From Actinomycetes bacterium (lineage in GTDB: Bacteria > Actinomycetota > Acidimicrobiia > Acidimicrobiales > Palsa-688), in assembly GCA_021809105.1 (NCBI GenBank), contig JAKBAM010000008.1:1-64000 (forward strand): DNA of 64,000 nt, given 5' to 3'. The position numbers were made by a program, and so were the translations under genes. Positions 884 through 18,347 of this stretch are shown here, piece by piece. Under the pieces are notes generated by a model, which was given only the letters and a program-made list of their open reading frames with translations, ran no database searches and had not been told where the DNA came from. The number at the start of each line of letters is the position of its first letter. The first letter of the stretch is position 1.

Positions 884-1327
884 GTGTCCAAGCGTCCCAT
901 AAGCGAAGGGCTGTTCACCTGGCCTCTCCCGGCGCCCCCGGCGCAGCCGAGGCTCCTCGGCTCGCGCTGCGAGGCGTGCGGGGCCGTCACCTTCCCCCGA
1001 TCCTCCGGGTGCCCCCGGTGCGGCGAGGAGCGCATGGAAAGCTGCGAACTCCCATCCAGGGGGACCCTCTACACCTGGACCACGCAGGGCTTCCTCCCGA
1101 AGCTGCCCTATCTCGGCCCCGAGACGCAGAAGACGTTCGAGCCGTGGGCGGTCGGGTACGTGGAGCTGGGAGACGTGATCCGCGTCGAGGGAAGGCTGCA
1201 CGACGTGGTTCTGGAGGATCTGGCTTTCGGGATGGAGCTGGATGTGGTCGTGCGTCCTTTCCGCACCGAGGAGGACGGCACTGAGGTCTACACCTTCGGC
1301 TTCGCTCCCGCCGCCCAGAGCATGTAG
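884..1327 (+). CDS. Zn-ribbon/OB-fold DUF35 protein, partner of thiolase-fold enzyme
   Basis: This 147-residue protein has an N-terminal zinc ribbon with cysteines at 29, 32, 43 and 46 (CxxC-x10-CxxC), followed by an OB-fold running from about residue 55 to 135. This is the standard DUF35 layout. Such proteins bind thiolase-fold enzymes and, in ChsH2/Ltp2, complete the aldolase active site and channel the CoA ester. The GTG start at 884 is preceded by GAGAGGA at normal spacing. It follows the truncated thiolase-fold gene directly and precedes a TetR gene, so the three are probably co-transcribed. Confidence 0.88.
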   Translation: MSKRPISEGLFTWPLPAPPAQPRLLGSRCEACGAVTFPRSSGCPRCGEERMESCELPSRGTLYTWTTQGFLPKLPYLGPETQKTFEPWAVGYVELGDVIRVEGRLHDVVLEDLAFGMELDVVVRPFRTEEDGTEVYTFGFAPAAQSM

Positions 1328-1339
1328 CTGCCTGGTCCC

Positions 1340-1975: not shown

Positions 1976-2061
1976 GCCCCGAGCTCGCCGCCAGGGGGAA
2001 GGTCTAGATTCGAGTCGTGGAATCCATGCAAAGCAAGGGCGAACGAGCGGAGGGCGGCTCA

Positions 2062-4092: not shown

Positions 4093-4110
4093 TTTGACGT
4101 CGCAGTCAAA
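4093..4110. promoter_or_regulatory. 18-bp palindromic operator overlapping a -35 element
   Basis: The sequence TTTGAC-GTCGCA-GTCAAA is a perfect 6-bp inverted repeat around a 6-bp spacer. It matches the element at 14401-14418 at 17 of 18 bases. The TTGACG at 4094 can act as a -35, with CATGCT 17 bp downstream as a weak -10 and ATG 4130 close to the predicted transcript start. The arrangement is what a TetR repressor blocking RNA polymerase would use. The two paralogous TetR genes in this block are the obvious candidates. Confidence 0.7.
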
Positions 4111-4129
4111 ATATGTCATGCTGGACAGC

Positions 4130-5320
4130 ATGGCACGCCGTTGCGATTTTCCCGTCTTCGATGCCGACAACCATCTGTACGAGACGAAGGACGCGTTCAC
4201 CCGTCACCTGCCGAGCAAGTACAAGGGTGCGATCGAATACGTCGAGATCAAGGGGCGGACCAAGATCATGATCCGCAACACGGTCAGCGACTACATCCCG
4301 AACCCGACGTTCGATGTCGTGGCTCGCCCGGGGGCTCAGGAGGAGTATTTCCGAGTCGGCAACCCGGAGGGCAAGTCCTACCGCGAGATCGTCGGCGATC
4401 CGATGAGGTCGATCCCGGCGTTCCGTAGGCCGGAGCCGAGGGTCGAGCTGATGGACGAGCTCGGGGTGGATCGAGCCCTGATGTTCCCCACCTTGGCCAG
4501 CCTGCTCGAGGAGCGCCTACGCGACGACCCTGAGCTCACTCACGCAGTGATCCACTCGCTCAACGAGTGGATGCACGAGGAGTGGACCTTCAACTACGAG
4601 AACCGGATCTTCGCGACACCTGTCATCACCCTTCCCATCGTGGAAAAGGCGTTGGCGGAGTTGGAGTGGGCGATCGAGCGCGGTGCCAAGACCATCCTCA
4701 TCCGTCCTGCGCCGGTGCCCGGTTACCGCGGGTCGCGCTCGTTCGGGCTGCCGGAGTTCGACCCGTTCTGGAAGGCCGCCGTGGATGCGGACATCCTCGT
4801 TTCGATGCATGCTTCCGACAGCGGCTACACCCGCTACCAGGGCGACTGGACCGGTCCGGAGGAGATGCTGCCCTTCCGCCTCGATCCGTTCCGGGCGCTG
4901 ACAGTGGGCAAGCGACCGGTAGAGGACACCTTCGCGGCCTTCGTCTGCCACGGCGTGTTCACCCGGTTCCCCGACCTGCGGGTCGCCTCGATCGAGAGCG
5001 GTGGCGACTGGGTCGTGCCGTTCCTCGAGCACATCGAGGACGTCTACCGCAAGATGCCCCAAGCCTTCGACGAGGATCCCGTGGAAGCGTTCAAGCGCAA
5101 CGTCTGGGTCAGCCCCTTCCACGAGGACAGGATCGACCGCCTCGCCGAGGCGATCGGTGCGGATCACATCCTGTTCGGCTCCGACTACCCCCACCCGGAG
5201 GGTCTGGCCGAGCCTTGCAGCTACCTGGATCATCTCCCCTCGACCTTCTCGTCGGAGGATGTCGCCAAGATCATGGGCGGGAACCTCGCCGACATCATGC
5301 GGGTAGGCGCTACGGTCTGA
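4130..5320 (+). CDS. Amidohydrolase family protein (ACMSD-like TIM barrel)
   Basis: This 396-residue metal-dependent hydrolase belongs to the amidohydrolase-2 (ACMSD) group. Visible metal-site motifs are FDADNH near the N-terminus, SMHASDSG in the middle and LFGSDYPHPEG near the C-terminus. Relatives carry out decarboxylation or hydrolysis of ring-cleavage products. TTG 4094 and ATG 4118 are in-frame alternatives, but TTG 4094 lies inside the palindromic operator, so ATG 4130 is preferred. No clear ribosome binding site precedes it, which fits a leaderless transcript. The gene is followed 37 bp later by a thioesterase. Confidence 0.85.
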   Translation: MARRCDFPVFDADNHLYETKDAFTRHLPSKYKGAIEYVEIKGRTKIMIRNTVSDYIPNPTFDVVARPGAQEEYFRVGNPEGKSYREIVGDPMRSIPAFRRPEPRVELMDELGVDRALMFPTLASLLEERLRDDPELTHAVIHSLNEWMHEEWTFNYENRIFATPVITLPIVEKALAELEWAIERGAKTILIRPAPVPGYRGSRSFGLPEFDPFWKAAVDADILVSMHASDSGYTRYQGDWTGPEEMLPFRLDPFRALTVGKRPVEDTFAAFVCHGVFTRFPDLRVASIESGGDWVVPFLEHIEDVYRKMPQAFDEDPVEAFKRNVWVSPFHEDRIDRLAEAIGADHILFGSDYPHPEGLAEPCSYLDHLPSTFSSEDVAKIMGGNLADIMRVGATV

Positions 5321-5357
5321 CGGCCGTCTCCCCCTCCCGCGAAACGAGGCCCGACCC

Positions 5358-6188
5358 ATGATCAGTGTCGACGAGCTCGTAGGGCTGCTCGCCCTCGAGC
5401 GCGTAGGTCCCGACCAGTACCGCGCCGACAGCCTCCTGATGGGCCACGACGTGGTCTTCGGGGGTCAGGTGCTGGCCCAGTCCATCGTGGCCGCGCTCGA
5501 CGGTCAAGAGGACAAGCTGGTCAAGACCGTGCACACGGTGTTCGCCCGTAGCGCATCCACCAAGGAGGCGCTCGACATCGCCGTGGACGTGATGCACAAC
5601 GGTCGCTCGCTGGCCAGCGCAGCGGTCACTATCAGCCAGCAAGGGCGCCTCTGCACGAGATCTCTCGTGCTCCTTTCCGGAGACGAGCCGGACCTCATAC
5701 GGCATGCCGATCCTTCCCCCGCCGTCCCTCTGCCTGCAGAGGAGGCGTCTGGGTCGCCGGCGAGGGAGTGGGCCGTGCAGGTAGTCGGCGATGTCGACAT
5801 CAACGACCCCGACGCGGTAGGGCCGCCGGAGCTCGACGTCTGGACGCGCTTCCCCGGGGCTCCGGAAGGTCCCGGGATCAACCAGGCTCTGCTCAGCTTC
5901 GCCACCGACGGCTTCTTGATCGGCACTGCGATGCGGCCCCACAAGGGCGTCGGCCAAGCCCAGGCGCACCGGACCATCTCGACGGGCGTGCTGACCCACA
6001 CGCTGACCTTTCACGAACCTTTCTCGGCGGGGGAATGGCTCCTACTCTCGCACCGAAGCCCCTACGCGGGGCACGGGCGGAGCTACGGGAGCGCCGGGAT
6101 ATACCGCTCCGACGGACAGTTGGTGGCGTCGTTCGTGCAGGACAACATGATCAGGACGAAGGCGGCACAGAGCCGCAGCGCCCTATAG
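5358..6188 (+). CDS. Acyl-CoA thioesterase II (TesB-like)
   Basis: This 276-residue protein has the length and layout of TesB: two hotdog folds, the first around residues 10-115 (with VVFGGQVLAQSIVAA) and the second from about 150, containing MRPHKGVGQAQAHRTIST and a C-terminal LVASFVQDNMIR. It hydrolyses acyl-CoA thioesters in the cytoplasm. It probably shares the transcript of the amidohydrolase and therefore the 4093 operator. Its stop codon and the stop of the opposing TetR gene share the hexamer CTATAG at 6183-6188. Confidence 0.9.
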   Translation: MISVDELVGLLALERVGPDQYRADSLLMGHDVVFGGQVLAQSIVAALDGQEDKLVKTVHTVFARSASTKEALDIAVDVMHNGRSLASAAVTISQQGRLCTRSLVLLSGDEPDLIRHADPSPAVPLPAEEASGSPAREWAVQVVGDVDINDPDAVGPPELDVWTRFPGAPEGPGINQALLSFATDGFLIGTAMRPHKGVGQAQAHRTISTGVLTHTLTFHEPFSAGEWLLLSHRSPYAGHGRSYGSAGIYRSDGQLVASFVQDNMIRTKAAQSRSAL

Positions 6189-6881
6189 CTGAAGGCGGGA
6201 CCGGGCGCGGGCCTTGGCGTTGGCGCCAGGGCCCGGCGCGTCGTCGGAGAGCCCTAGCGCGTTGACGAACACCCGGGTGAGTTGCTCGACTCCTCGCTCG
6301 AAGCTGCAGTCGAGCGCGCCCTCGACGAACCACATCTCGGGGAACCTGCTCGTCATGGAGCCGAGCACCGCGGCAGCTATCACAGGATCGAGGTCGGAGT
6401 CCGCCAATCCGTGACGCTGCAGCTGCCGGATGGCCTCCTCGACGCCTTCGCTGTAGAGGCGGTGCCACTCGAGCCTGGCCGCCTTGACGTGGTCGTCGTA
6501 GCGGGACACCTGCTCGATTACCCGCATGATCCGTGCCTCGCGCTGGTAGGTCGCCATGTGGAGGCGCATGGCCTGCTCGATCCGCTGATGCGGGGTGGCC
6601 GCCGAAGAGTGGTCGAGGATCACGTTGTCGAGAGGCGCGCTGAGCTGGTCTTCGATGCCCTTCGCCACCTCTCGGAAGATCTCCTCTTTCGATTCGAAGT
6701 AGTGGTAAAAGGACCCATGGGAGAGGCCGGCCCGCTTGGCGATGTCCGATATGCGAGCGTCCAGGAAGCCGCTCTCCTCGAAAGTCTCCTTGGCGGCATG
6801 GAGGAGTCTGGCGCGGGTCTCGACGCCTTTGCGGGAGCGGGGGCCGTTGGGTTTGTCGCTGTCGAGCGCAGCGGTTGACAC
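6183..6881 (-). CDS. TetR/AcrR family transcriptional regulator (paralogue of 1340-1975)
   Basis: The protein is 232 residues if started at GTG 6881, which has AGAAGGAG 8 bp upstream; a longer frame to 7058 exists, but its N-terminus is low-complexity and has no comparable start. The helix-turn-helix contains LSHGSFYHYFESKEEIF. The ligand domain shares IMRVIEQVSRYDDHV with the TetR at 1340. It is the last gene of the minus-strand run that begins at the operator at 14401. It converges with the operator-controlled amidohydrolase-thioesterase pair, so it is a good candidate for the repressor of both. Confidence 0.9.
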   Translation of the reverse strand: MSTAALDSDKPNGPRSRKGVETRARLLHAAKETFEESGFLDARISDIAKRAGLSHGSFYHYFESKEEIFREVAKGIEDQLSAPLDNVILDHSSAATPHQRIEQAMRLHMATYQREARIMRVIEQVSRYDDHVKAARLEWHRLYSEGVEEAIRQLQRHGLADSDLDPVIAAAVLGSMTSRFPEMWFVEGALDCSFERGVEQLTRVFVNALGLSDDAPGPGANAKARARSRLQL

Positions 6882-6988
6882 AGTAGAAGCTCCTTCTGGC
6901 GTCCGGCCGAGTTTGGCACGGCCGCCTGGCGTGCGGGAGGCATGGTTCGCCCCCGTCGCCTGGCGCGGCGTAGATGGCGGTGAGGTAT

Positions 6989-7843
6989 CTACTGTGGACT
7001 CCGGAGCAGGCCCATCGGGGCATGGTTGGCCCATCCCGATCCTGGCCAGTTGAACCATCCCGACGATGCTGACGTCCCGCCGTCGGGATGCAGCGTCGTG
7101 CCGGTCAGGTACGACGAAAGCCCTGACGCCAGGAAGACGACACAGTTGGAGACGTCGCGTACCTCCCCGACGCGGCCCAGAGGGATGGCGATCCGGATGC
7201 CTTCGGCGGTGGAGAGGGAGGAATCATTGCCGGAGATCCTCGCCAAGTTGGGCGTCGGGACGAAGTCAGGAGCGACGTTGTTCACCCGGATACCGTCTGG
7301 CGCCACTTCGAGCGCCAGCGTCCGGGCGAACTGCTCGACCGCTGCCTTCGCTGCCGAGTACACGGCGAACCCCGGGGCGGCGCGATGCGCCTCGATCGTG
7401 GTCAGGTTGACGATGCTGCCGCCGCGGCCTCCGGCACGCATCCGCGGTACGGCGAGCGAGCAGGCGTGGAGCACGTGGAGCAGGTTGGTGCGCAACAACG
7501 CGTCCCAGCCTTTGGGGGTGGTGTCGACGAACGGGGCCCGAAAGGTCCCACCGACCACATTGACCAGGGTGTCCAGCCGACCCCATCGTTCGTCGACCGC
7601 GCTGAAAAGGTCGGCGAGCACTTCTGGGTCGCGGACGTCACCCCGCTTGACGATCGAATCCACCCCTTGCCGCTCCAACTCCCCACCCAGCGTCGTGACC
7701 GCCGCGTCGTCGATGTCGAGTGCTGCGACTCCGACGCCGTTGGCTGCCAGGTCGCGGACGATGGCTGCACCCAGGCCGCCCGCCCCTCCGGTGACGACGG
7801 CGACGGTGCCCCCCAGCCCCGATCGATCTTCGAACCATCCCAT
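6989..7843 (-). CDS. Short-chain dehydrogenase/reductase (SDR)
   Basis: This is a 284-residue classical SDR. It has the cofactor motif TGGAGGLG near residue 18, the NVVGG structural segment, and a catalytic YSAAK (Tyr-x3-Lys). It would oxidise or reduce a hydroxyl or keto group on a CoA ester or ring intermediate with NAD(P). The start is ATG 7843 (MGWFEDRS); the frame upstream to 7942 overlaps the preceding gene and is not family-like. It lies 14 bp after the luciferase-like gene and is co-directional with it. Confidence 0.88.
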   Translation of the reverse strand: MGWFEDRSGLGGTVAVVTGGAGGLGAAIVRDLAANGVGVAALDIDDAAVTTLGGELERQGVDSIVKRGDVRDPEVLADLFSAVDERWGRLDTLVNVVGGTFRAPFVDTTPKGWDALLRTNLLHVLHACSLAVPRMRAGGRGGSIVNLTTIEAHRAAPGFAVYSAAKAAVEQFARTLALEVAPDGIRVNNVAPDFVPTPNLARISGNDSSLSTAEGIRIAIPLGRVGEVRDVSNCVVFLASGLSSYLTGTTLHPDGGTSASSGWFNWPGSGWANHAPMGLLRSPQ

Positions 7844-7857
7844 GCCGGATCCGCCGC

Positions 7858-8760
7858 TCAACCGAGAAAGGTGGAGCCGAAAGATTCGAGGAACTCGTAG
7901 GTGGCCTCGGGACGATGCGTCTCGCTGGAGATCACGACCCAAGTCACGCCCGCGTCGGCCATCTCGGCGAAGGCCTCCCGATGGCGGCCCGGGTCCGCTG
8001 CGGGCGAGGCGAGGGAAGGACCGGTGTATGAGCAGAGGATGTCGATCTCATCGGTGCGCCCGGCCGCCACCGCCGACTGGCGCAGCTCGGCTACGAGGCC
8101 TTGGAGTTGCGCCACGGACCCGATCGTCAACGTTCTGGCGGTGGCGCTCAGCTGGGCGGACCCGAGCATCGGCATCCATCCTTGCGCGCGCGCCGCGACG
8201 CGCCGGCGGCTGAGCTTGGAGTTGCCACCGATCCATATCGGGATCGGGACCTGGACCGGTCGGGGCCTGGCGATGACATCTCGTGCGTCGAAATGGCGGC
8301 CCTGATAGGAGAAAGGATCGCCAGCCCAATGCAATGGTAGGACATCCAACGCCTCGTCGAAGAGTGCATTGCGCTCCTCCATATCCACGCCCAGCGCATA
8401 GAACTCTGTCTTGTGGTAGCCGGCTCCGAGGCCGAGGATGAACCGCCCCCCGGACAACTTGTCGACCGTCGCGGCAGATTTGGCGAGGAGAAAAGGGTTG
8501 CGGTACGGCGCGACCGCCAGGTGGGTCAGCAGCTTGATCCGGCTGGTGACCGCCGCGGCGTGGCCGAGAGCCACGAACGGGTCGAGGCTTTGATGTCCGC
8601 CCGAGACCAGCCATCGAGCGCTCGGCACGGGGTGCTCGGTGAGGGCGAACCCATCGAACCCGGAAGCCTCGACCCTGGCGGCCACCTCGTGGATCGGGCC
8701 GGCCTCGAGCATGTCGGCCTCCGTGCCGCTCGTCTCGGGGTAGTGGTACATGAATCGCAT
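7858..8760 (-). CDS. Luciferase-like monooxygenase family oxidoreductase (probably F420-dependent)
   Basis: This 300-residue TIM-barrel protein of the bacterial luciferase superfamily starts at ATG 8760 (MRFMYHYPE). Family features are FALTEHPVPSARW near the N-terminus, the LTHLAVAPYRNPFLLAKSA segment, and GRFILGLGAGYHKTEFYALG. In actinobacteria this subgroup mostly uses coenzyme F420, but the cofactor cannot be proven from sequence. Its place inside an operon for CoA-ester breakdown suggests that it reduces or oxidises a pathway intermediate. Confidence 0.83.
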   Translation of the reverse strand: MRFMYHYPETSGTEADMLEAGPIHEVAARVEASGFDGFALTEHPVPSARWLVSGGHQSLDPFVALGHAAAVTSRIKLLTHLAVAPYRNPFLLAKSAATVDKLSGGRFILGLGAGYHKTEFYALGVDMEERNALFDEALDVLPLHWAGDPFSYQGRHFDARDVIARPRPVQVPIPIWIGGNSKLSRRRVAARAQGWMPMLGSAQLSATARTLTIGSVAQLQGLVAELRQSAVAAGRTDEIDILCSYTGPSLASPAADPGRHREAFAEMADAGVTWVVISSETHRPEATYEFLESFGSTFLG

Positions 8761-8803
8761 CGTCAGACAACCTGCCGTCTCGCTAGAGCGGGCTCCCCGG
8801 AGG

Positions 8804-9043
8804 TCACTCGCGGTGTATGACACCGATCTCGGTGCCGATGTCGTAGGTAGCGCCGGTCGTCCCGCTCCAGTGGACCCTGCCTGATGCACCCGCCCCGATC
8901 TCGGACTCGACCTTCTCGGTCTCGATGACGAACAGCGGGTCACCCTCGGCGACCTGGGACCCTTCGTCCACGAGCAGCGCTACCAGCGTGGCTTCGGCGA
9001 CGGCGACTGAGACACGGGGGATGCGCACCGGGAATGCTGTCAC
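8804..9043 (-). CDS. Stand-alone lipoyl-domain protein (E2-like carrier without catalytic domain)
   Basis: This 79-residue protein is one complete lipoyl/biotinyl domain: a beta sandwich with Lys44 in the ETEKVES hairpin, the site of lipoylation. It ends right after the domain, with no linker, subunit-binding domain or acyltransferase domain, whereas a normal E2 is 400 residues or more. The GTG start overlaps the stop of the E1 beta gene (GTGA), so translation is coupled. It is likely to be the swinging-arm carrier for the E1 encoded upstream. The acyltransferase and E3 must be encoded elsewhere or be replaced by another acceptor. Confidence 0.83.
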   Translation of the reverse strand: MTAFPVRIPRVSVAVAEATLVALLVDEGSQVAEGDPLFVIETEKVESEIGAGASGRVHWSGTTGATYDIGTEIGVIHRE

Positions 9044-10041
9044 TCGCGCCTCGCCGATGCCGGCTCCAGCGTGCGGCGCGCCGCCGCCACGATACGCCCG
9101 GCGTCGGGGTACACCTGCGCATCCAGCGAGGGCGAGGCCGGGTTGGGGACGAAGCGGGCTCCCACCCGCCGGACCGGGGCGACGAGGTCGCCGAAGAGCT
9201 CCTCTTGGAGGATGGCGGCGATCTCGGCACCGGGTCCCGCGAAACGCACCGCGTCGTGCACCACCACCGCCCGCCTGGTCCGCCGCACCGAGTCGAGCAT
9301 CGTCTCGACGTCGAGGGGCACCAGGGTGCGCAGGTCCAGGACCTCGGCGTCGATGCCCTCGTCCTCGAGCCTCGACGCCGCTTCGGTCGCTTCCACCAGC
9401 CCCCTCCCGTAGGCGATGAGCGTGACGTCGGAGCCGGGCCGTTTGATGTCTGCCTGGCCGAGGGGGATGGCGAAGGAGGGTTCCGCCGGCACCAGTCCCC
9501 GCTGCCCTTGGAGGCGAATGGTCTCGACGAAGATGCACGGGTCGGGATCGAAGATGGCCGAGGTGAGCAAACCTTTGGCGTCTCGGGGGGTGGCGGGCAC
9601 GATCACCTTGAGCCCGGGGATGTGCATGAACCAGGCTTCCAGCGACTGGGAGTGTGTGGCCCCCGTGCCGAGCCCGCCGTACACCTGGGTGCGTATCGTG
9701 ATCGGAGCCGTCGTGCGGCCGCCCGACATGAAGCGAAGCTTGGCTGCGTGGTTGACGATCTGATCTACGGCGATGCCGATGAAGTCCATGATCATGATCT
9801 CGGCGACGGGCAGGAACCCGTCGAGCGCGGCCCCGATCGCCGCACCGACTATCGCGGCCTCGGAGATGGGTGTGTCGAGGACCCGGTCCGTGCCGTACTT
9901 CGTGGAAAGGCCTTTGGTCGGGCCGGACGCCCCGGGATCCGCGATGTCCTCACCGAGGAGGAAGACCCGATCGTCGCTGGCGAGCGCATGGTCCAACGCG
10001 GCATTGAGGGCCTCGCGCATGGTCATCTCCCGCTCTTCCAC
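9040..10041 (-). CDS. 2-oxoacid dehydrogenase E1 component, beta subunit
   Basis: This 333-residue protein is the beta subunit of a thiamine-diphosphate E1 (pyruvate, branched-chain or acetoin dehydrogenase type). It has the N-terminal pyrimidine-binding part with VFLLGEDIADPGA and DTPISEAAIVGAAIGAA, and the C-terminal transketolase domain with DLRTLVPLD. The GTG at 10041 has AGGAG 8 bp upstream, overlapping the stop of the alpha subunit gene; ATG 10026 is an alternative. Together with the alpha subunit it would decarboxylate a 2-oxoacid and acylate a lipoyl carrier. Confidence 0.9.
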   Translation of the reverse strand: MEEREMTMREALNAALDHALASDDRVFLLGEDIADPGASGPTKGLSTKYGTDRVLDTPISEAAIVGAAIGAALDGFLPVAEIMIMDFIGIAVDQIVNHAAKLRFMSGGRTTAPITIRTQVYGGLGTGATHSQSLEAWFMHIPGLKVIVPATPRDAKGLLTSAIFDPDPCIFVETIRLQGQRGLVPAEPSFAIPLGQADIKRPGSDVTLIAYGRGLVEATEAASRLEDEGIDAEVLDLRTLVPLDVETMLDSVRRTRRAVVVHDAVRFAGPGAEIAAILQEELFGDLVAPVRRVGARFVPNPASPSLDAQVYPDAGRIVAAARRTLEPASARRE

Positions 10042-10052
10042 GATGATCGCTC

Positions 10053-11033
10053 CTAGGCCGGGCAGTGGGTGGGGTCGCCGTAAACATCGGAATCGAGCTC
10101 GTCGATCGAAGGGGGCGCCGCCGCCAGCGCGGCCGCTAGCGCATCTTCCACTCGCGCGCTGGCCGCCGCCTCGATGTCGTCGAGCTCCCCTTCGGTGCAG
10201 ACGCCCGTGCCTGTCAGGTGGGAGCGGAAGCGGGGGAGGGGGTCGGCCGCCTGTGCCGCTGCCAGCTGCTCCTTGGGGATGTACGCCATGGGATCGCCGA
10301 AATAGTGGCCCCGGAACCGGAAGGTCAGGCACTCGAGCAGCGTGGGCCCCCCGCCGCTCCTGGCCCGCTCCAACGCCTGGCGGAGCGAGGCGACGACGGC
10401 AAGGGGGTCGTTGCCGTCGACGCGCACGCCGGGCATGCCGTACGCGAGGGCGCGGTCTGCGACTCGCTCGACCTTCATGGTGTGCTCGGTGGGGGTCATC
10501 TCGGCATATTGATTGTTCTGGCAGACCAAGACCACCGGCAGATCCCAGAGCGCCGCCATATTGGCGGCTTCGTGGAACGAGCCGGTGTTGGTCGCGCCGT
10601 CACCAAAGCTGACAGCTGTGACACGGTCGAGGCCCCGGCGCTTGGCGGCCAGAGCCAGGCCCACGGCTACCGGAGGCCCGGCTCCTACGATCCCAGTGGA
10701 GAGCATGACTCCTGATTCGGGGCGGGCGATGTGCATGGTCCCTCCCTTGCCCCGGCTGGCGCCCACCTGGCGGCCGAGCATCTCGCCGAAGATCTCCAAG
10801 AGGGGCACGCCCTTGCCGATCAGGTCGTGCAGGCCCCGATAGGTCGTGAGGAGCTGGTCGTCGGGCCGTAGGCACAGTCCCAGGGCGGCCGCAATCGCTT
10901 CTTGCCCGCGCGAGGGCCAGTAGACGCAGAGCAACTCACCCGTGGCGATTCCCTTGCTGAGGCGATCGTCGGCCGCCTTCATGAGCACCATCAACTCGTA
11001 CAGGCGCCGTTGGCTGCCGGAGTCAGTTGCCAT
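10053..11033 (-). CDS. 2-oxoacid dehydrogenase E1 component, alpha subunit
   Basis: This 326-residue thiamine-diphosphate enzyme subunit has the ThDP/Mg motif FGDGATNTGSFHEAANMAA followed by CQNNQYAEMTP, and a RGKGGTMH loop. ATG 11033 has GGGGGAG just upstream and is preferred over the in-frame GTG at 11057, which lies 1 bp from the preceding stop. The substrate is unknown. Neighbouring acyl-CoA dehydrogenases and reductases point to a branched or odd-chain 2-oxoacid, but acetoin-type substrates cannot be excluded. Confidence 0.92.
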   Translation of the reverse strand: MATDSGSQRRLYELMVLMKAADDRLSKGIATGELLCVYWPSRGQEAIAAALGLCLRPDDQLLTTYRGLHDLIGKGVPLLEIFGEMLGRQVGASRGKGGTMHIARPESGVMLSTGIVGAGPPVAVGLALAAKRRGLDRVTAVSFGDGATNTGSFHEAANMAALWDLPVVLVCQNNQYAEMTPTEHTMKVERVADRALAYGMPGVRVDGNDPLAVVASLRQALERARSGGGPTLLECLTFRFRGHYFGDPMAYIPKEQLAAAQAADPLPRFRSHLTGTGVCTEGELDDIEAAASARVEDALAAALAAAPPSIDELDSDVYGDPTHCPA

Positions 11034-11058
11034 AACGGCTCCCCCCTCAGCGGTCACG

Positions 11059-11889
11059 CTACTCGGACCGCCCGAGCATGAACCGGGCTACGGGCGTAGC
11101 CTTTGGAAATGATCCGCTGATCCCCGAAGCGATGTACCCGACGTCGGATACCAGGGTGGCCCCGGTGATCGCCGCTGCCGCGTCACTGCACAAGAAGACC
11201 AGCGCCTGCGCCTGCTCCAGCGGGGTGGAGACCGCGATGCCGGCGTCGGCTCGGTAGTCAGATCCGAAGCCCAGCCACGTCTCCTCGTGGGCCCGCGCCA
11301 GGGGCGTATCGGTGGGTCCCGGGCAGATGGCGTTGATCCGAATTCCGCGCTGGAGGAAGGGAAAAGCCTCCCGGGCCACATAGGCGCAGATCGCCTGCTT
11401 GCTCCACATGTAGTCGGCCTTGCCGTGGTCGCGCGCCCATTGAGCAGCCACGTCGAAGTCGGTCAGGTCGAGAAACTCCGATAGCAGTTCGAGCTGCGCC
11501 TCCCATCCGAGGCCGGCGGCTGAGGATATGAAACCGATCGCTGAGCCCCTGGGAAGCGCCTCTGCCGCGAGGAGCCCGCCGACCAGGTGGCGGTGCCCGA
11601 TGAAGTTGGTCCTCTCGATCCCCGGCGTGCCATCAGCCACGCCCGCGCACAGGAACAGGGCGTGCACGGGTCCGCCACAAGCCTCGACCGCGGCGTCGAT
11701 GGACGCCTTGTCGGCCAGGTCGACGGTGATCTCCTCGGCGCCGGGCAGCGAACACTCGGCGATGTCCATCACCACGACTTCCGCCCCGGCGTCTCGCGCC
11801 AGCGCGGCGACCGCCGCACCCATGCCGGTCGCGGCGCCCACGACGAGGGCCCGCTTGCCTCCGTAGCTGAATGCATCGAAGAGCGTCAT
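11059..11889 (-). CDS. SDR family oxidoreductase (3-alpha-HSD/carbonyl reductase-like)
   Basis: This 276-residue SDR has the nucleotide-binding motif GAATGMG near residue 18, a FISSAAG catalytic serine segment and YMWSKQ (Tyr-x3-Lys). The shortened central region and the insertion before the catalytic Tyr resemble the 3-alpha-hydroxysteroid dehydrogenase/carbonyl reductase group. The stop TAG lies 25 bp before the preferred start of the E1 alpha gene. It would act on a hydroxyl or ketone of the substrate carried by the dehydrogenase pair upstream in the same operon. Confidence 0.87.
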   Translation of the reverse strand: MTLFDAFSYGGKRALVVGAATGMGAAVAALARDAGAEVVVMDIAECSLPGAEEITVDLADKASIDAAVEACGGPVHALFLCAGVADGTPGIERTNFIGHRHLVGGLLAAEALPRGSAIGFISSAAGLGWEAQLELLSEFLDLTDFDVAAQWARDHGKADYMWSKQAICAYVAREAFPFLQRGIRINAICPGPTDTPLARAHEETWLGFGSDYRADAGIAVSTPLEQAQALVFLCSDAAAAITGATLVSDVGYIASGISGSFPKATPVARFMLGRSE

Positions 11890-11946
11890 GTCGTCTCCTC
11901 CAGGTCGGCGTTGCTCGAAATGGGGGCTTACCGGTCTCGGGTGGGT

Positions 11947-13221
11947 CTACCTGCTCCGGGCGCCGGCGGAAGGACCGCGCGGGACCTCGCGGAAGGGCAC
12001 GTCGCGATCGGAGCTTCGCTCCCGGGGCATGCCGAGCACCCGCTCGCTGATGACGTTGCGGGCCATCTCCGTCGTGCCGCCGCCGATGCAGGCGGCTTGG
12101 CGCATCAGGAAGTCGACGCCGAGACCGGCGGCCGCCCCGTCGTCGTCGGTCCATGCACCGCCCATGGCGCCGGCGATCTCGAACTCGATGGTGCGTGTCC
12201 GCGCCCCGGCCACCCCTCCGAAGAGGCGGGCAATGGCGGCGCCCTGATCGGAGATCCGGCCCGACCTGACTCCTTGGGCGATCCGCTGCTGGAGCTCGCG
12301 GCCGGCGATGTCGAGGACGCGGGCCTCGCCGATCAGATCCCGCACGTGGGAATCGGCCAGAACCCCGGCATCGCGCGCGACATCGGCCGGGGACCCAGAC
12401 CCCGGGGTGAACCGCGCTCCTGGCGGCAAGGTGACCAGAGGAGAGTTGTAGAGCATCCTCTCGTGGAACATCCACCGGACGCCGACGGTCCATCCTTCGT
12501 CCACTTCTCCGACCCGATCAGTGTCGGGCACTCGGAGGTCGGTGAGGAACTCCTGGCAGAACTCCTTGGAGCCGTTCAACATCTCTATCCTGTGGACGTC
12601 GACCCCTTCCCGGTGGAGGGGAAAGATGAAGACCGTCAGGCCGCGATGCTTCGGGACATCCCAGTTGGTCCGAGCCAGGCAGAGGCCCCAGTCGGACCAC
12701 CACGCCCCTGTGGTCCAGATCTTGGATCCGTTGAGCACCCACTCGTCGCCGTCGCGCACCGCCGTTGTCTGCGCGGCCGCAACGTCGGAGCCCCCGCCGG
12801 GCTCGGACAGGAGCTGCATCCAAAGCTCCTCTCCCTTGAGGATGGCGGGAATGTGGCGCCGCTTCTGCTCTTCGGTCCCGAAGTCGAGGATCACGGCTGC
12901 GCACGGCGAGAAGTTGGGCGCTTGCAGGCGGTGGGGGAACTCGTAGCCGGCCAGCTCCTCGTTGAATGCGCGCTGGTGGGCAGGCGTGAGCCCCTGGCCC
13001 CCGTACTCCCGCGGCATGCATATGCCGGCGAAGCCGGCATCGAAGAACATCCGCTGGATCTCCCGCTCCCGGCGGATGCCGGCCAGCTCGGTCTCCTCGC
13101 TGGCGCCTCCGCCAAGGGCGGCGGCCAAGACACTGCGGTCCATGAGCTCGAGGTTCGATCGGATCCAGGAGCGTGCCCGCTGCCTGAAGGCTTCGGGATC
13201 TTCGATGTTATCGGCGGCCAT
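11947..13221 (-). CDS. Acyl-CoA dehydrogenase, alpha-type subunit of a pair
   Basis: This 424-residue FAD-dependent acyl-CoA dehydrogenase has MQLLSEPGGGSDVAA (FAD/substrate loop), WVLNGSKIWTTGA, and a C-terminal GGGTTEMARNVI. The last motif lacks the Glu of medium-chain enzymes. A Glu in MFHERML occupies the alternative position used by isovaleryl-type and steroid FadE enzymes. The start ATG 13221 overlaps the stop of the companion dehydrogenase (ATGA). Such adjacent pairs form alpha2-beta2 enzymes in actinobacterial steroid catabolism. Confidence 0.9.
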   Translation of the reverse strand: MAADNIEDPEAFRQRARSWIRSNLELMDRSVLAAALGGGASEETELAGIRREREIQRMFFDAGFAGICMPREYGGQGLTPAHQRAFNEELAGYEFPHRLQAPNFSPCAAVILDFGTEEQKRRHIPAILKGEELWMQLLSEPGGGSDVAAAQTTAVRDGDEWVLNGSKIWTTGAWWSDWGLCLARTNWDVPKHRGLTVFIFPLHREGVDVHRIEMLNGSKEFCQEFLTDLRVPDTDRVGEVDEGWTVGVRWMFHERMLYNSPLVTLPPGARFTPGSGSPADVARDAGVLADSHVRDLIGEARVLDIAGRELQQRIAQGVRSGRISDQGAAIARLFGGVAGARTRTIEFEIAGAMGGAWTDDDGAAAGLGVDFLMRQAACIGGGTTEMARNVISERVLGMPRERSSDRDVPFREVPRGPSAGARSR

Positions 13222-14351
13222 CAGCGGTCCTCCTGAGGTGCAAGATCGGCGGCGATGCGCTGGCGGTGCTCGGCTGGAGTCCCCATCAGGGCTCGGTCCA
13301 GTGTCGCCCGGCGGAGGAAGAGGTGCAGGTCGTGATCGAAGGTGACCCCGATGCCTCCGTGGATCTGGACGCAATCCTGGATGAGCTCGCCTCCGTACTG
13401 GCCGACGAATGCCTTGGCGACGCTCACGAGTTCATTGGCTTCGGGGGCTCGGGACTCGACGGCCAGGGCGGCGGCGTCGGCCACAGCGTGACCAGCCTCG
13501 AGCCATGACTTCATGTCCGCGAAGCGATGTTTTAGCTCCTGGTAGGAGGCCAGGGGGCGGCCGAAGGAATAGCGGTCGAACGCCCACTCAACGGTCATGT
13601 CGAAAGCGCGCTGCATGGTGCCCACCGTCTCGGCGCACAAGATCACCAAGGCGGTCTGCACCTGGTGCTCCACCTGCTCGGCTGCCTGTCCCGGCGTACC
13701 CACCACGGCGTCTAGCGGCACCCTGACGGCGTCGAGCCTGACGATCGAGAAGCGCCGGGCGAGGTCGACGGTGTGCATCGGTCGGATGGTGAGACCGGGC
13801 GTTCCTGCGGGCACCAGCACTTGGGTCGCTCCGTCGCCGGAGCGTCCTGTGACCAAGAGATGGGCGGCTTGGGCCGCGTGCTCGACGGGTCGCTTCTCCC
13901 CGCTGAGCACCAGTTCGTCGCCTTCGACACGGATTTCGAGGGCGCCGGCGGTCAGTCCTGCGAGGCGCTCCTGGAAGCACCATGACGCCGTGGACGTCCC
14001 GGCTAACACCGCATCGAGGACGGTGCCGTGTTCTTCGCCGCCCGCCCGGCTCAGCGCAGACGCGACGACGTTGGTCGACAACAGGGGGCCGGGGGCGGCG
14101 TGGCGCCCGAACTCGTAGGCGACCAACGTCAGATCTATGAGTCCCTGACCGCTGAGTGATCCGCCCCCGTGGGCCTCGTCGACGAGCAACGACGTCCATC
14201 CGAGCTCGGCGCCCCTCCGCCAGTAGTCGGCGTCGAAACCGTCCGGATCGTCGCGCAGGCGGCGGATCTCTCCCGGCGGGACCTGGTCGGAGAGGAACTT
14301 CGCGGTGTTCTCCCGGAAGAACTCCTGGTCGGATGTGGGTTCGAGCAGCAT
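13221..14351 (-). CDS. Acyl-CoA dehydrogenase, beta-type subunit of a pair
   Basis: This 376-residue protein is a divergent acyl-CoA dehydrogenase. The central region lacks the normal substrate-loop motif, while the C-terminal FAD-binding half is intact: RYSFGRPLASYQELKHRFADM region and QIHGGIGVTFDHDLHLF. This matches the FAD-contributing, non-catalytic partner of heterotetrameric FadE enzymes. The start is ATG 14351 (MLLEPTSDQEFF); the longer frame runs through the operator and is rejected. It is the first gene of the minus-strand run, 50 bp from the 14401 palindrome. Confidence 0.88.
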   Translation of the reverse strand: MLLEPTSDQEFFRENTAKFLSDQVPPGEIRRLRDDPDGFDADYWRRGAELGWTSLLVDEAHGGGSLSGQGLIDLTLVAYEFGRHAAPGPLLSTNVVASALSRAGGEEHGTVLDAVLAGTSTASWCFQERLAGLTAGALEIRVEGDELVLSGEKRPVEHAAQAAHLLVTGRSGDGATQVLVPAGTPGLTIRPMHTVDLARRFSIVRLDAVRVPLDAVVGTPGQAAEQVEHQVQTALVILCAETVGTMQRAFDMTVEWAFDRYSFGRPLASYQELKHRFADMKSWLEAGHAVADAAALAVESRAPEANELVSVAKAFVGQYGGELIQDCVQIHGGIGVTFDHDLHLFLRRATLDRALMGTPAEHRQRIAADLAPQEDR

Positions 14352-14400
14352 CGTCGGCGTTCTCGCTTTCCTCGCCGGCCCGGCGGGCAACGTACTGGAT

Positions 14401-14418
14401 TTTGACGTCACAGTCAAA
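14401..14418. promoter_or_regulatory. 18-bp palindromic operator with promoter elements on both strands
   Basis: TTTGAC-GTCACA-GTCAAA is a perfect 6-bp inverted repeat with a 6-bp spacer, differing at one base from the element at 4093. On the minus strand TTGACT at 14417 is followed after 17 bp by TACGTT, a TAnnnT-type actinobacterial -10, pointing at the dehydrogenase pair. On the plus strand TTGACG at 14402 is followed after 18 bp by TACGGT, pointing at the Liv-type transporter. The palindrome therefore covers the -35 of both. It probably binds a TetR repressor. Confidence 0.75.
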
Positions 14419-14619
14419 GCCCGGATACGGTCGGTTCGATGACCCCGTCGGGCGCCCGCTGGAGAGCGCAGGCCGGCTGGTGAGGGCTCTCGGGGCGAGA
14501 TCTGCACCGGCGAGGCGTGCTGCGAACCCGACACGGGGATTGCTAGTGTTCCTCGAGATCGGGGGACCCGTCCAGGACGAGGCGGCTGGTGTGACCGACG
14601 TGTTGCAAGGGGTGAGTGG

Positions 14620-16659
14620 ATGCTTCAGTACGTACTAGCCGGGCTGGCGCTGGGCTCGATCTATGCGATCGCGTCCGCGAGCCTGGTCGTCACCTTCGTC
14701 TCCGCCGGGGTGCTCAACTTCGCCTTCGGCTCGATGGCCTATTTCGTGGCCCGCTTTTACTATTTCCTCAACTCGCAGCACGGATGGCCTACCGACGCAG
14801 CCGGCGCAGTGTCGCTCCTGGTAGTGGCGCCACTGCTGGGAATAGTGCTGTACGGACTGCTCTTCCGCTTCATCCGCGGCAAGCCCACACTGGTGAAGTT
14901 GGTGAGCATGATCGGGTTGTCGGTCGCGCTCCCGCCGGTCGCCGACCTCACCTTCGGTACGCAGTCCATCACCTCCGCCCCTGGCCTGGCGTCGCTGTCG
15001 GATCAGCCTTTCCACTTCCTCGGCGCGCCGGTGACCACCAACCAGGTGATCACCTACGGCTTCCTGGTGGTCGTGGTGGTCCTCGGGACTGCGGTGTTGC
15101 GCCTGACCGACGTGGGCCTGCGTGTGAGGGCCATGGTGGACTCCGAGGCGATGGCGTCACTTTCAGGGACCAATCCCGGTCGGGTGGCACTCGGCGTCTG
15201 GGCCGCCAGCAGCACGCTGGCCGGGCTGGCCGGCATCCTTGTGGCTCCCACCAACGGCCTGACGACCACCGGCATGACGACCTTGATGGCCGCGGCCTTC
15301 GCCGCGGTCGTGGCTGCCCGCCTTCGGTCCCTTCCCGGAGCGGTCGGCGTCTCACTGCTCATGGGCGTGGTGACCGACGTGATCCAGAAGTACCTACCGC
15401 CGAATAGCTCCTTCACCGCTGCCATCATCCCGAGCATCCCGTTCGGCTTCATCTTGATCGCCCTGATCGTCTACCTGATCAGATCCGGCTCGCTCGACGA
15501 GGATGCCGGCGTCGCCGGCCCGCTGGACCAGGCGATCAAACCGGCCAACCAGGAATCCGGGGCGGTCTCCACCGACGCCGGTCGCCGCAAGGGTCCTGCG
15601 AAAGCCCTGCCCGCGATTCCCGTCATCGTGATCGCGCTGTTCCCGCTGATCTTCCACGGCTCCCCCTACTGGCTGGGCTTGGTCGCGCTCGGCTTCTGCT
15701 ACGCGATCACCTTCCTGACCTTCACCGTCGTCACGGGTGAAGGTGGGATGTTGTGGCTGTCACAGATCATCTTCGCCGGCGTCGGAGCGTTGGCCACCGC
15801 CCAGTTCGTCACGCTGTGGCACGTGCCGGTCCTAGCGGCGATCTTCCTCGGAGGGGTGGTCGCCGCCCTGGCCGGCGCGATCATCGGCCTGCTCACCATC
15901 CGGCTGGGTGATCTCTACGTCGCCTTGGTGACCCTGACCTTCGGTCTCCTGATCGAGACGTTGGTCTTCCCTCTCAACCGCTTCTTGAAGGGTGGCCTCG
16001 GCACGCCACTGCAGCGCCCGAGCTTCGCCACCAGCGACTTCGCCTTCTCGTTCCTGGCGTTGGGCGTGTTCGTCGTGTTCGCCCTCCTCACCTTGAACCT
16101 ACGCCGCTCGACGACAGGGCTGGCGCTGCGGGCCGTACGCGACAGCGAGGCGGCGTCACGCACGCTCGGTCTGAGCGTCCTGCAGGTGAAGGTGATCGTG
16201 GGCTCGCTCGCCGCCTTCGTGGCCGCCGTCGGTGGCGGGTTCCTTGCTCTGGATGCACTCGTCGCCCAGCCGCAGTCCTACGCCACCTTCGGGGGCCTGG
16301 TGTGGCTGGCCGTGGTCGTGACCATGGGAGTTCGCTCCATCACCGCGGCTGTCCTGGCGGGCATGGCATTCGCCCTCATGCCGGGCGTCTTCCAGACCTA
16401 CGTCCCGACCCGCTTCGGCGAGGTGCCGGCGATCCTCTTCGGGTTGGGCGCGGTCGGAGTCGCACGCAATCCCGAGGGAGTCGTGGCCCAAAACGCCCAA
16501 CAGCTCCGGGCGCTGGTCGCCAGGCTGCGCTCGGGGAAGGGTCCCGCGCCAGCCGCGATCGACGGCACCCAGGCCGTGCACCGGGAAGATCCGACTGACC
16601 GGGGAGAACAGCGAGCGGGTGTCGGATCCACCGAGACCGGCGTGGAGGCAGCGCCATGA
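14620..16659 (+). CDS. Fused branched-chain amino acid-type ABC transporter permease (LivH-LivM)
   Basis: This 679-residue membrane protein joins two permeases. The LivH-like half (about residues 1-290) begins MLQYVLAGLALGSIYAIAS and carries the inner-membrane helices of one half. A hydrophilic linker at about 290-330 follows, then a LivM-like half to about 640, with GEGGMLWLSQIIFAGVGA and RRSTTGLALRAVRDSEAA. The soluble tail is about 40 residues. ATG 14620 has AAGGGG upstream. These importers move branched amino acids or other small carboxylates. No substrate-binding protein gene lies nearby. The stop overlaps the ATPase gene (ATGA). Confidence 0.92.
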   Translation: MLQYVLAGLALGSIYAIASASLVVTFVSAGVLNFAFGSMAYFVARFYYFLNSQHGWPTDAAGAVSLLVVAPLLGIVLYGLLFRFIRGKPTLVKLVSMIGLSVALPPVADLTFGTQSITSAPGLASLSDQPFHFLGAPVTTNQVITYGFLVVVVVLGTAVLRLTDVGLRVRAMVDSEAMASLSGTNPGRVALGVWAASSTLAGLAGILVAPTNGLTTTGMTTLMAAAFAAVVAARLRSLPGAVGVSLLMGVVTDVIQKYLPPNSSFTAAIIPSIPFGFILIALIVYLIRSGSLDEDAGVAGPLDQAIKPANQESGAVSTDAGRRKGPAKALPAIPVIVIALFPLIFHGSPYWLGLVALGFCYAITFLTFTVVTGEGGMLWLSQIIFAGVGALATAQFVTLWHVPVLAAIFLGGVVAALAGAIIGLLTIRLGDLYVALVTLTFGLLIETLVFPLNRFLKGGLGTPLQRPSFATSDFAFSFLALGVFVVFALLTLNLRRSTTGLALRAVRDSEAASRTLGLSVLQVKVIVGSLAAFVAAVGGGFLALDALVAQPQSYATFGGLVWLAVVVTMGVRSITAAVLAGMAFALMPGVFQTYVPTRFGEVPAILFGLGAVGVARNPEGVVAQNAQQLRALVARLRSGKGPAPAAIDGTQAVHREDPTDRGEQRAGVGSTETGVEAAP

Positions 16660-18347
16660 CAGACCTATCCTCCAATGTGGCATCCGGCGGCGCCGCAGAC
16701 AGGGCTGGGGCGGCGGCAGGGTCGAACACGAGCCGCCTGGAGTGCTCGGGTGTGACCGTGCGTTTCGGCGGCCTCGTGGCGTTGGCCGACGTCGACCTGG
16801 TGGTGCCGCCGTCGGCGATAGTCGGCTTGGTGGGCCCCAACGGGGCCGGCAAGAGCACCCTCTTCGGCGTGCTGTCGGGCTTGCTCCGCCCTACCCGAGG
16901 CAAGGTTCTCCTGGAAGGCCAGGACATCACGGGGGAGCGACCGCAGCTGCGGGCGGCGTCGGGCTTGGCGCGGACGTTCCAGCATCCCGAGTTGTTCGCC
17001 GGCCTCACGGTGCGCGAGCACCTACGACTCGGCCACCGGGTGAGGAATGCCAAGAGCCGCATCTGGTCGGACCTTTTCACGATGGGGAGTGTGCGGGCGC
17101 CCGAGGCAACCGAGGACGAGCGCGTCGACGGGCTGGTCGCCCTGCTGGGGCTCGAATCCATAGCCGATCGCGCCGCGCTCGGCTTGCCGCTGGGTTCCGC
17201 TCGCCTTGTCGAGTTGGGGCGTGCGCTGTCCACGTCGCCGACGGTGCTGCTCCTCGACGAGCCCTCGTCGGGTTTGGACTCCGCGGAGACCGAGCAGTTC
17301 GAGGGCACTCTTCGCCGGGTCGCCGCCGAGCGTGGCATCTCCGTGCTGCTCGTCGAGCACGACGTCGAACTGGTGATGCGTCTCTGCAGCACCATCAACG
17401 TCCTGGACTTCGGGGCCTTGATCGCCTCCGGTTCCCCCGACGCGGTTCGCAGCGACCCGGCTGTGCGTGCCGCCTACCTCGGGGAAGAGGTGGCGGGCGC
17501 GGCCGAGCCGCGCGAGGACGGCGAGATCGTCATGGCCGCTTCCCCAGAAGCTGGGTCGGCGCCGGCAGCGGTCCCCGGCGGCGCGACACCGGCACAGGCC
17601 ATGCTCCCCGACGGTGAGGCGCCCGCAGCAGCTCTGGCCGTTCGGAGCCTGTCGGTCCGCTACGGGGACGCGGTGGCGCTCTCCGACGTGTCCTTCACCG
17701 TGGGCGCAGGCCGGGTCCTGGCGATCCTGGGAGCCAACGGCGCCGGCAAGAGCAGCCTGGCCCGGGCGGTCTCCGGGCTGGTGTGCCCTCACTCGGGCAG
17801 CGTCCTCTTCGACGGGCGGGAGATCTGTGCATGGCCGGCCCACCGGATCCGTCAAGCTGGGATGGTCCACCTCCCGGAGGGCCGGGGCGTGTTCCGGCAG
17901 CTGACGGTGGTGGACAACCTCCGGATGGCCGTCGCCAGCGTGGAGACCCGTCAGGGTCGGCGCGACGCGGTGGAGATGGCGCTCTCGACCTTCCCCGCCC
18001 TAGCAGACCGTCGGCGGCAGCTCGCTGGATCCCTGTCGGGTGGGGAGCAGCAAATGCTCTCGCTGGCCCGAGCCTTGGCGACCTCCCCCAAGCTGGTGAT
18101 CGCCGACGAGATGTCTCTCGGCCTGGCCCCCCGGATGGTCGACCTGGTCTTCGAAGGGCTGGGGCGGGCGCGGGAGATCGGCGTGTCGGTCGTCATGATC
18201 GAGCAGTACGTCCATCGTGCCTTGGCCTTCGCCGACGATTGCCTGGTGCTGCACCGGGGGCGGCTGGCATGGACCGGATCTGCGCACGACGTGGGCAGCG
18301 AGGTTTTGAGCCACTACTTGGGTGACGCGATGAGCCAGGCGTCCTGA
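16656..18347 (+). CDS. Fused ABC transporter ATPase (LivG-LivF)
   Basis: This 563-residue protein has two complete ABC ATPase domains in LivG-LivF order. The first has GPNGAGKST (Walker A, about residue 63) and VLLLDEPSSGLD; its signature is degenerate (LPLGSARLVE). The second begins near residue 325, with GANGAGKSS, LSGGEQQMLSLARAL and LVIADEMSLGLAP. It powers the fused permease encoded immediately upstream, so the whole importer needs only these two polypeptides plus a binding protein. The substrate is probably an organic acid used by the adjacent operon; that is inference. Confidence 0.93.
   Translation: MTDLSSNVASGGAADRAGAAAGSNTSRLECSGVTVRFGGLVALADVDLVVPPSAIVGLVGPNGAGKSTLFGVLSGLLRPTRGKVLLEGQDITGERPQLRAASGLARTFQHPELFAGLTVREHLRLGHRVRNAKSRIWSDLFTMGSVRAPEATEDERVDGLVALLGLESIADRAALGLPLGSARLVELGRALSTSPTVLLLDEPSSGLDSAETEQFEGTLRRVAAERGISVLLVEHDVELVMRLCSTINVLDFGALIASGSPDAVRSDPAVRAAYLGEEVAGAAEPREDGEIVMAASPEAGSAPAAVPGGATPAQAMLPDGEAPAAALAVRSLSVRYGDAVALSDVSFTVGAGRVLAILGANGAGKSSLARAVSGLVCPHSGSVLFDGREICAWPAHRIRQAGMVHLPEGRGVFRQLTVVDNLRMAVASVETRQGRRDAVEMALSTFPALADRRRQLAGSLSGGEQQMLSLARALATSPKLVIADEMSLGLAPRMVDLVFEGLGRAREIGVSVVMIEQYVHRALAFADDCLVLHRGRLAWTGSAHDVGSEVLSHYLGDAMSQAS

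Follow-up and report, generated by a model that had tools for sequence, protein, structure and literature searches.

Gene content of the locus

The window analysed here is the whole stretch of positions 1 to 64,000 of contig JAKBAM010000008.1, from an actinomycete of the Acidimicrobiales. This contig is labelled C39, and further sites in the 3,652,865 bases of genome searched lie on contigs labelled C1, C11, C10, C16, C22, C77 and C96. Two 18-bp palindromes of the form TTTGACGTC(G/A)CAGTCAAA occur in the window, at 4093-4110 and 14401-14418. The first-pass annotation of the window had reported them as near-identical, and reading the sequence confirmed that 17 of the 18 bases are equal. We consider it very probable that the palindrome is the operator of a TetR repressor, here called TetR1, which would control a dispersed regulon for uptake and catabolism with at least five operators. 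The two operators in the window, O1 and O2, and the genes around them are listed below. Genes were called with a purpose-made script trained on the codon usage of the window, not with a standard caller.

4093..4110, plus strand: operator O1, TTTGACGTCGCAGTCAAA, 5' of the amidohydrolase-thioesterase pair; score 30.5 of 31.3 with the scoring matrix described below
14401..14418, plus strand: operator O2, TTTGACGTCACAGTCAAA, flanked by two divergent gene sets, the acyl-CoA dehydrogenase operon (minus strand) and the fused Liv genes (plus strand)
4130..5320, plus strand: protein of the amidohydrolase fold (PF04909), predicted to be a dinuclear metal enzyme; the start codon is at 4130 or 4118
5358..6188, plus strand: TesB-like acyl-CoA thioesterase
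6183..6881, minus strand: TetR1, the favoured regulator, whose gene closes the minus-strand run
6989..7843, minus strand: SDR
7858..8760, minus strand: F420-dependent LLM-class oxidoreductase (TIGR03619, above cut-off)
8804..9043, minus strand: lipoyl/biotinyl carrier domain
9040..10041, minus strand: 2-oxoacid dehydrogenase E1 beta
10053..11057, minus strand: 2-oxoacid dehydrogenase E1 alpha
11059..11889, minus strand: SDR2, with orthologues in the clusters of genomes G002 and G015
11947..13221, minus strand: acyl-CoA dehydrogenase subunit ACAD-A
13221..14351, minus strand: acyl-CoA dehydrogenase subunit ACAD-B, which opens the run at a distance of 50 bp from O2
14620..16659, plus strand: fused Liv-type permease (LivH+LivM)
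16656..18347, plus strand: fused Liv-type ATPase (LivG+LivF)

The minus-strand run extends from 14351 to 6183 with gaps of at most 107 bp, and its genes would form one operon. The arrangement is as the first-pass annotation had described it: the two gene sets converge at tetR1, where the ends of the thioesterase gene (6188) and of tetR1 (6183) overlap by 6 bp, and O2 faces both the dehydrogenase-led run and the fused Liv importer, whose genes begin 202 bp from the operator. ACAD-A and ACAD-B are adjacent, are mostly kept together in relatives, and are the probable subunits of a two-subunit acyl-CoA dehydrogenase. The best PDB matches of ACAD-A are Tcur3483 and 4x28, the latter being ChsE4-ChsE5 from the degradation of steroid side chains. 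The E1 and LLM genes, which have no counterpart of at least 40% identity in the relatives' loci compared, look like local additions to the run; E1 alpha, E1 beta and the lipoyl domain (8804-11057) are accompanied by no E2 or E3 in the same run. Upstream of O1, a TesB-like thioesterase fused to DUF427 (2017-3366) is followed by a second DUF427 protein (3363-4046), and pairs akin to this one occur in G015 and in two Frankia loci, L190 and L193. For most regulon proteins, the NCBIfam and PDB matches carried generic or below-cut-off names, by which the substrate is not named.

Operator copies in the genome

The exact pattern TTTGACN6GTCAAA occurs at two places in the whole genome, namely O1 and O2, while a reversed-pattern control gave none and about 0.02 occurrences were expected from base composition. 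Shuffling of the window yielded only a moderate excess, as 5 of 100 shuffles also reached two matches when two mismatches were allowed (mean 0.41). Given two exact matches against none for the control, it is the genome-wide count, rather than the window shuffles, that is decisive for the reality of the operator. A genome scan had been proposed in the first-pass annotation, with many copies inside genes named as evidence against an operator, and these two exact copies in 3.65 Mb are what it returned.

With up to three mismatches to TTTGACGTCRCAGTCAAA, eight places were found genome-wide (control 0). Five of them are positioned at promoters: 4093, 14401, C39:70333, C1:25338 and C11:10438. The remaining three, on C10, C16 and C96, lie inside open reading frames (ORFs), and the C10 copy has just one mismatch, so that near copies within genes do exist. 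The C10 copy, at a place where two genes have no Pfam match, and the three-mismatch copies on C16 and C96 were rejected as members of the regulon, being inside ORFs. When the spacer was left free and one arm mismatch was allowed, the same five promoter copies were recovered together with C10, C96 and a place on C77 that also lies inside an ORF (control 0). The spacer GTCRYA is common to all five promoter copies and, as it was recovered even in the free-spacer search, the spacer match between O1 and O2 is real.

The three promoter copies beyond O1 and O2 mark genes of related function. On C1, the operator is followed by an SDR that shares 77-85% identity with SDRs from the equivalent loci of G001, G002, G015 and G020, and then by a Peripla_BP_6 binding protein, 57-59% identical to those of G001, G006, G020 and G027. 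The copy at C39:70333 precedes an aldehyde dehydrogenase and a CaiB-type CoA-transferase. The former scores 704 bits against its nearest model, TIGR04284, short of the cut-off of 775, and the latter is 75-76% identical to genes within the ACAD runs of G002 and G020. The C11 copy precedes another PF04909 protein, which shares 50% identity with the amidohydrolase of the window. Since the C1 and C39 genes have orthologues in the loci of relatives, the operator gathers genes that are scattered here but clustered there. The fused Liv importer of the window has no binding protein gene beside it, and the C1 copy is predicted to supply that binding protein. The proposal of a single regulon for uptake and breakdown is supported by the genome-wide sites and strongly by the relatives described below, and the regulon reaches beyond the window. 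A Fer2/FAD/NAD reductase (C39:70887-71987, or L057:6887-7987) lies 537 bp from the C39:70333 operator, on its opposite side. It is not evidently under the operator, and it is a possible redox partner for the PF04909 proteins.

Conservation of the operator with TetR1

Close orthologues of TetR1, with 58-71% identity, were found in G001, G002, G006, G015, G020 and G027. All six of these nearest relatives with an orthologue have the operator in promoters of the same genes. In G001, which belongs to the same genus as the window, it lies 5' of the binding protein, of ACAD-B and of the SDR, and in G002 it lies 5' of ACAD-B and of the amidohydrolase. The site is found between ACAD-B and the SDR-LivHM side in G015 and G020, and between ACAD-B and LivHM in G006 and G027. 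An operator corresponding to O2 is present between ACAD-B and the Liv side in loci L064, L065, L066 and L067, with an SDR preceding LivHM in L064 and L067. In G304, it lies 5' of the amidohydrolase and 5' of an aldehyde dehydrogenase-ACAD-B-ACAD-A-CaiB run; on the other strand, the latter site (locus L208) faces SDR-LivHM-LivGF-binding protein-thiolase-TetR (53%). It is further found 5' of aldehyde dehydrogenase-ACAD-B-ACAD-A in G396, 5' of CaiB in G280 and, in G107, 5' of the aldehyde dehydrogenase, between the amidohydrolase and ACAD-B, and 5' of the thioesterase. Within the order, the operator is conserved across families f1, f28 and f45, and the pattern recurred in Acidimicrobiaceae, Acidimicrobiales and Frankiales records when named genomes were scanned. 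The exact palindrome was present in only 4 of 61 genomes including that of the window, the other three having other spacers; as the outer bases vary in relatives, an exact search misses their sites.

Sites were also scored with a matrix built from 15 of them, a score of at least 24 being called a site. In 37 TetR1-clade loci outside the matrix (585,652 bp), which are not mutually independent because several genomes give two or three loci and L176 and L178 are close, 22 sites were called in 17 loci. The same loci gave no site with 20 dyad-preserving column-permuted matrices or with the reversed matrix. Training genomes, duplicate contigs, L240-L246, L248-L250, L105 and L107 were left out of these counts. 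Loci L211 and L215, which have no site of at least 24, were counted with other clades although TetR1 is their best match; moving them would give 17 of 39. Thirteen loci around ACAD-A orthologues that have no local TetR1 (231,598 bp), three of whose genomes (G167, G230 and G259) hold a TetR of 49-51% identity elsewhere, contained no site, not even at a score of 22. One of them, in G339, has the thioesterase, SDR, ACAD-B, ACAD-A, SDR2, CaiB and aldehyde dehydrogenase genes together, and its only match is a weak one of 17.8.

Among 397 genomes of the order, the strict pattern was found in 17. It was present in 8 of the 16 genomes with a TetR1-like protein and in 9 of the 381 without one (Fisher p 1.9e-8, uncorrected for relatedness). 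Restricted to the 47 genomes with ACAD-A, the corresponding numbers were 8 of 12 and 1 of 35. Two records titled Acidobacteriota and Myxococcales (L173 and L188) also carry a tetR1 gene, the former with the whole cluster, in which the binding protein shares 95% identity with its counterpart in an Actinomycetes bin; either mislabelled bins or transfer may account for this.

Promoter geometry

The first-pass annotation had noted a -35-like TTGAC overlapping both palindromes, and this holds. At O2, a -10 box is found on both strands:

14412..14417, minus strand: -35 box TTGACT inside O2
14389..14394, minus strand: -10 box TACGTT, 17 bp from the -35 box, toward ACAD-B
14402..14407, plus strand: -35 box TTGACG inside O2
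14426..14431, plus strand: -10 box TACGGT, 18 bp from the -35 box, toward the Liv genes
4094..4099, plus strand: -35 box TTGACG inside O1; its -10, CATGCT at 4117-4122, 17 bp away, is poorly matched

A spacing profile of TANNNT was made over 65 promoter directions at 33 loci, which were picked because earlier scans had shown or suggested sites there. With the arm TTGAC taken as -35, TANNNT followed after exactly 17 bp in 26 of the 65 directions and after 18 bp in 6, as compared with 0 to 4 directions at every other spacing from 8 to 59 bp; the 65 directions include the 15 training sites of the matrix and near-identical relatives (e.g. L176/L178 and L065/L066), and are not 65 independent cases. 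Because TANNNT peaks at 17 bp from the arms, the palindrome is best read as an operator together with two back-to-back -35 boxes. The spacing of 17 bp is seen on both strands in L064, L065 and L067, and the operators on C1 and C11 serve one-directional promoters. Simultaneous use of the palindrome by two polymerases would hardly be feasible.

If CATGCT serves as the -10 at O1, transcription would start close to the ATG at 4130 and the mRNA would perhaps be leaderless. The conserved part of the amidohydrolase starts just after this ATG, and we favour the start at 4130 over that at 4118.

The regulator and alternative explanations

TetR1 matches the DNA-binding domain of its family (PF00440 TetR_N, 9.9e-16, 57.7 bits, cut-off 24). 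As tetR1 closes the regulated minus-strand run, it would be expressed together with its targets. In G001, the operator lies 163 bp 5' of tetR1 and is shared with a divergent SDR, and in the Frankiaceae loci L203, L204 and L210 an operator with a score of 23.7 precedes the TetR match by about 80-150 bp. We favour TetR1 over the TetR at 1340 as the cognate regulator. This assignment is not proven, since sister TetR clades share the operator type.

The proposed mechanism is one of repression rather than activation. A TetR1 dimer would cover the -35 box, or both -35 boxes where the arms of the palindrome lie between divergent genes, and would block RNA polymerase. An intermediate of the pathway, most likely an acyl-CoA thioester, would bind TetR1 and release it from the DNA, upon which at least five operators would fire together. 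O2 would drive the Liv permease and ATPase on one side and the acyl-CoA dehydrogenase operon ending in tetR1 on the other, and O1 the amidohydrolase-thioesterase pair. The C1 copy would drive the SDR and the binding protein of the importer, C39:70333 the aldehyde dehydrogenase and the CaiB-type CoA-transferase, and the C11 copy the second amidohydrolase, so that uptake and breakdown of probably a single substrate would be controlled jointly.

Several observations weigh against this reading. O1 has the poor -10 mentioned above. A TetR tree of 46 rows does not restrict the operator to a single clade: 14 changes are needed, the shuffled mean being 15.6, and 125 of 500 shuffles were as low. Among 34 loci that belong mostly to sister clades (Actinomadura, Nocardioides, Streptomyces and others), 10 contained a total of 12 sites of at least 24. 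The recognition helix SHGSFYHYF, present in 10 of 15 TetR1-clade rows, also occurs in the sister rows L102 and L104. Nine genomes without TetR1 carry the strict pattern, at 11 places of which 7 are inside ORFs, and the reversed control pattern, found in 4 of the 397 genomes, indicates a background. Conversely, 8 of the 16 genomes with a TetR1-like protein do not have the strict pattern. Of these, G142 and G280 have matrix matches 3' of tetR1, before SDR and CaiB, respectively; G244 and G281, with a TetR1 of 54-56% identity, have no match in the stretch fetched; and G167, G230, G259 and G204 hold more distant TetRs. Finally, G056, whose best TetR1 match is only 3.3e-9, has a site with one mismatch at L071:7695, in a low-GC-like stretch where no genes were called. 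It seems that the whole TetR subfamily reads half-sites of the TTGACGTC type.

This bears on the possibility that the main reader of the operator is the second TetR of the window (TetR2, 1340-1975) or a paralogue on C22. Both belong to the same subfamily and share the helix SYGAFYHYF, which is similar to the SHGSFYHYF of TetR1; loci of sister clades carry related sites such as ACTGACGTCGATGTCAAT or GTTGACGTCGACGTCAAT, and the operator label is not restricted to a clade of the tree. However, there is no operator near TetR2, the best score in window positions 1-4000 being 7.9, and the neighbourhood of the C22 paralogue contains weak sites only, with scores of 13.5 and 13.2, whereas TetR1 is encoded within the regulated run and occurs together with the operator. 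We consequently judge it quite improbable that either of these two is the main reader. Near members of the C22 paralogue clade (L105:6148, L107:16579, L104:15785 and L069:1234), sites tend to a fuller palindrome, for instance GTTGACGTCGACGTCAAT before an amidohydrolase in L107. Beside TetR2, an SCPx-type thiolase and a DUF35/ChsH2-like OB protein are encoded at 1-1327. In Actinomadura, Nocardia, Blastococcus and others, relatives of TetR2 have SCPx homologues of about 60-73% identity in their vicinity. This is a second conserved association, accompanied in some of the loci by TTGACGTC-like sites.

The 17-bp spacing in 26 of 65 directions would also suit a palindrome that is merely a pair of back-to-back -35 boxes, a promoter element with no dedicated repressor. 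Promoters must be very numerous in this genome, and such an element should not be limited to two exact copies, nor be absent from the 13 ACAD loci without TetR1 at the locus. The pattern also stands at the one-directional promoters on C1 and C11, and the inner GTC (positions 7-9) is kept though it lies outside the -35 box, with the caveat that matrix selection inflates column frequencies. Taken together, this makes a pure promoter element very unlikely. Least credible of all is an origin by chance or from a duplicated promoter fragment, despite the two near matches in 5 of 100 window shuffles and the one-mismatch copy inside an ORF on C10: permuted matrices gave no match in 586 kb, and the sites are conserved in f1, f28, f45 and Frankiales records. 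Duplication of a promoter fragment was rejected, as the flanks of the genome's own five sites differ and no long duplicated segment is present.

The amidohydrolase-fold protein

The amidohydrolase of the window has a TIM-barrel fold (PF04909, 4.2e-27). Its residues D13, H15, H227, E289, D352 and H355 are constant in all 21 aligned rows (20 distinct, the window protein being present twice). These six metal positions are also kept in the mononuclear AibH1, according to the part of PMC7782822 consulted, and so only a seventh residue discriminates dinuclear sites. In the same source, the seventh position, E313 in PtmU3, is described as acidic only in enzymes with binuclear centres. The residue aligned with it is E357, and among the 21 rows it is glutamate in 15, aspartate in 4 and threonine in 2.

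A structure model (mean predicted local distance difference test, pLDDT, 78.9) matched 4dzi (Z 45.9), PtmU3 (33.0), DitZ (32.8), SfbO (29.7) and AibH1H2 (29.2). The closest solved relative, 4dzi, is 38% identical and is an amidohydrolase with no stated function. The decarboxylase ACMSD, with a Z of 29.3, reaches the same level as AibH1H2. A neighbouring Rieske redox partner is a feature used to find oxygenase candidates in the part of PMC10811679 consulted; the genome has 15 matches to Rieske genes, none of them on C39, C1 or C11, the contigs of the regulon sites. As the ligand set fits, ACMSD scores alike and no Rieske gene is nearby, the model and alignment make a dinuclear enzyme likely and an oxygenase only possible.

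A broader proposal has TetR1 as master switch of an actinobacterial catabolic pathway not described before, in which a dinuclear (Fe2 or Mn/Fe) enzyme of the amidohydrolase fold would be an oxygenase instead of a hydrolase and would hydroxylate a CoA-bound or free substrate. The palindrome would be both operator and a shared -35 pair for divergent promoters of uptake and degradation, and a whole TetR subfamily (core TTGACGTC...GTCAA) would read this arrangement, in Acidimicrobiia and Frankiales as well as in other actinomycetes. We regard this proposal as doubtful.

Comparison with known systems

A TetR-controlled CoA catabolic regulon is a well-supported prediction and belongs to a familiar class; we did not find this one described in the literature searched. 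Searches by operator sequence returned Thermus FadR, MbdR, a KstR paper and primers or unrelated sequence, and the operator itself was not found described among the matches listed, nor among those listed for topic searches. For the Acidimicrobiia of the relatives, which are mostly uncultured bins, no regulon of this kind was found in titles and abstract openings. PMC4482099, in the part available, gives mycobacterial TetR motifs as logos rather than text and stands outside the comparison.

The operator is precise enough to collect scattered pathway genes, including the absent binding protein of the Liv importer, and the inducer of TetR1 would offer a direct handle on the substrate of the pathway. 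The finding also draws attention to PF04909 proteins as possible oxygenases, as opposed to hydrolases. The window amidohydrolase has its fold and metal-ligand set in common with PtmU3, AibH2 and SfbO (PMC7782822, PMC10811679), although, unlike the oxygenase candidates of PMC10811679, it has no Rieske gene on the regulon contigs. This and the following comparisons draw on portions of the cited sources.

Thermus FadR (PMC5597230) resembles TetR1 in being a TetR that acts on a TT..AC....GT..AA pseudopalindrome over fatty-acid genes, but its 15-bp site, TTRNACYNRGTNYAA, has another half-site and spacing. BkaR (Rv2506, PMC3920632) is an autoregulatory TetR dimer on a palindromic operator with extra genomic copies; it governs branched-chain keto-acid genes through the core GTTA(N)T(N4)A(N)TAAC, which the operators described here do not contain. 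KstR2 of mycobacteria and rhodococci (PMC3068626) is likewise an actinobacterial TetR with few intergenic operators and a cholesterol-catabolic regulon, and for most genes its motif lies 22-82 bp from the start. TetR1 matches KstR2 (4w97, E 1.9e-10) as one of many remote TetRs. The 14-bp KstR2 operator, AnCAAGnnCTTGnT, differs from the operators here, which read TTTGACGTCRYAGTCAAA and do not contain the KstR2 motif.

MbdR, which governs 3-methylbenzoate catabolism in Azoarcus sp. CIB (PMC4424350), belongs to another organism and pathway and recognizes ATACN10GTAT rather than TTTGACGTCRYAGTCAAA; its role has been proven in vitro and in vivo, whereas that of TetR1 is predicted from sequence. It is nevertheless alike in being a TetR repressor whose palindromic operator recurs among the promoters of a single catabolic cluster, that of its own gene included, and its inducer is an aromatic CoA thioester. 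The MbdR operator spans the -10 box and, at one promoter, the -35 box. Operator arms that double as -35 boxes, as described here, would be a simple design for coupling uptake and breakdown.

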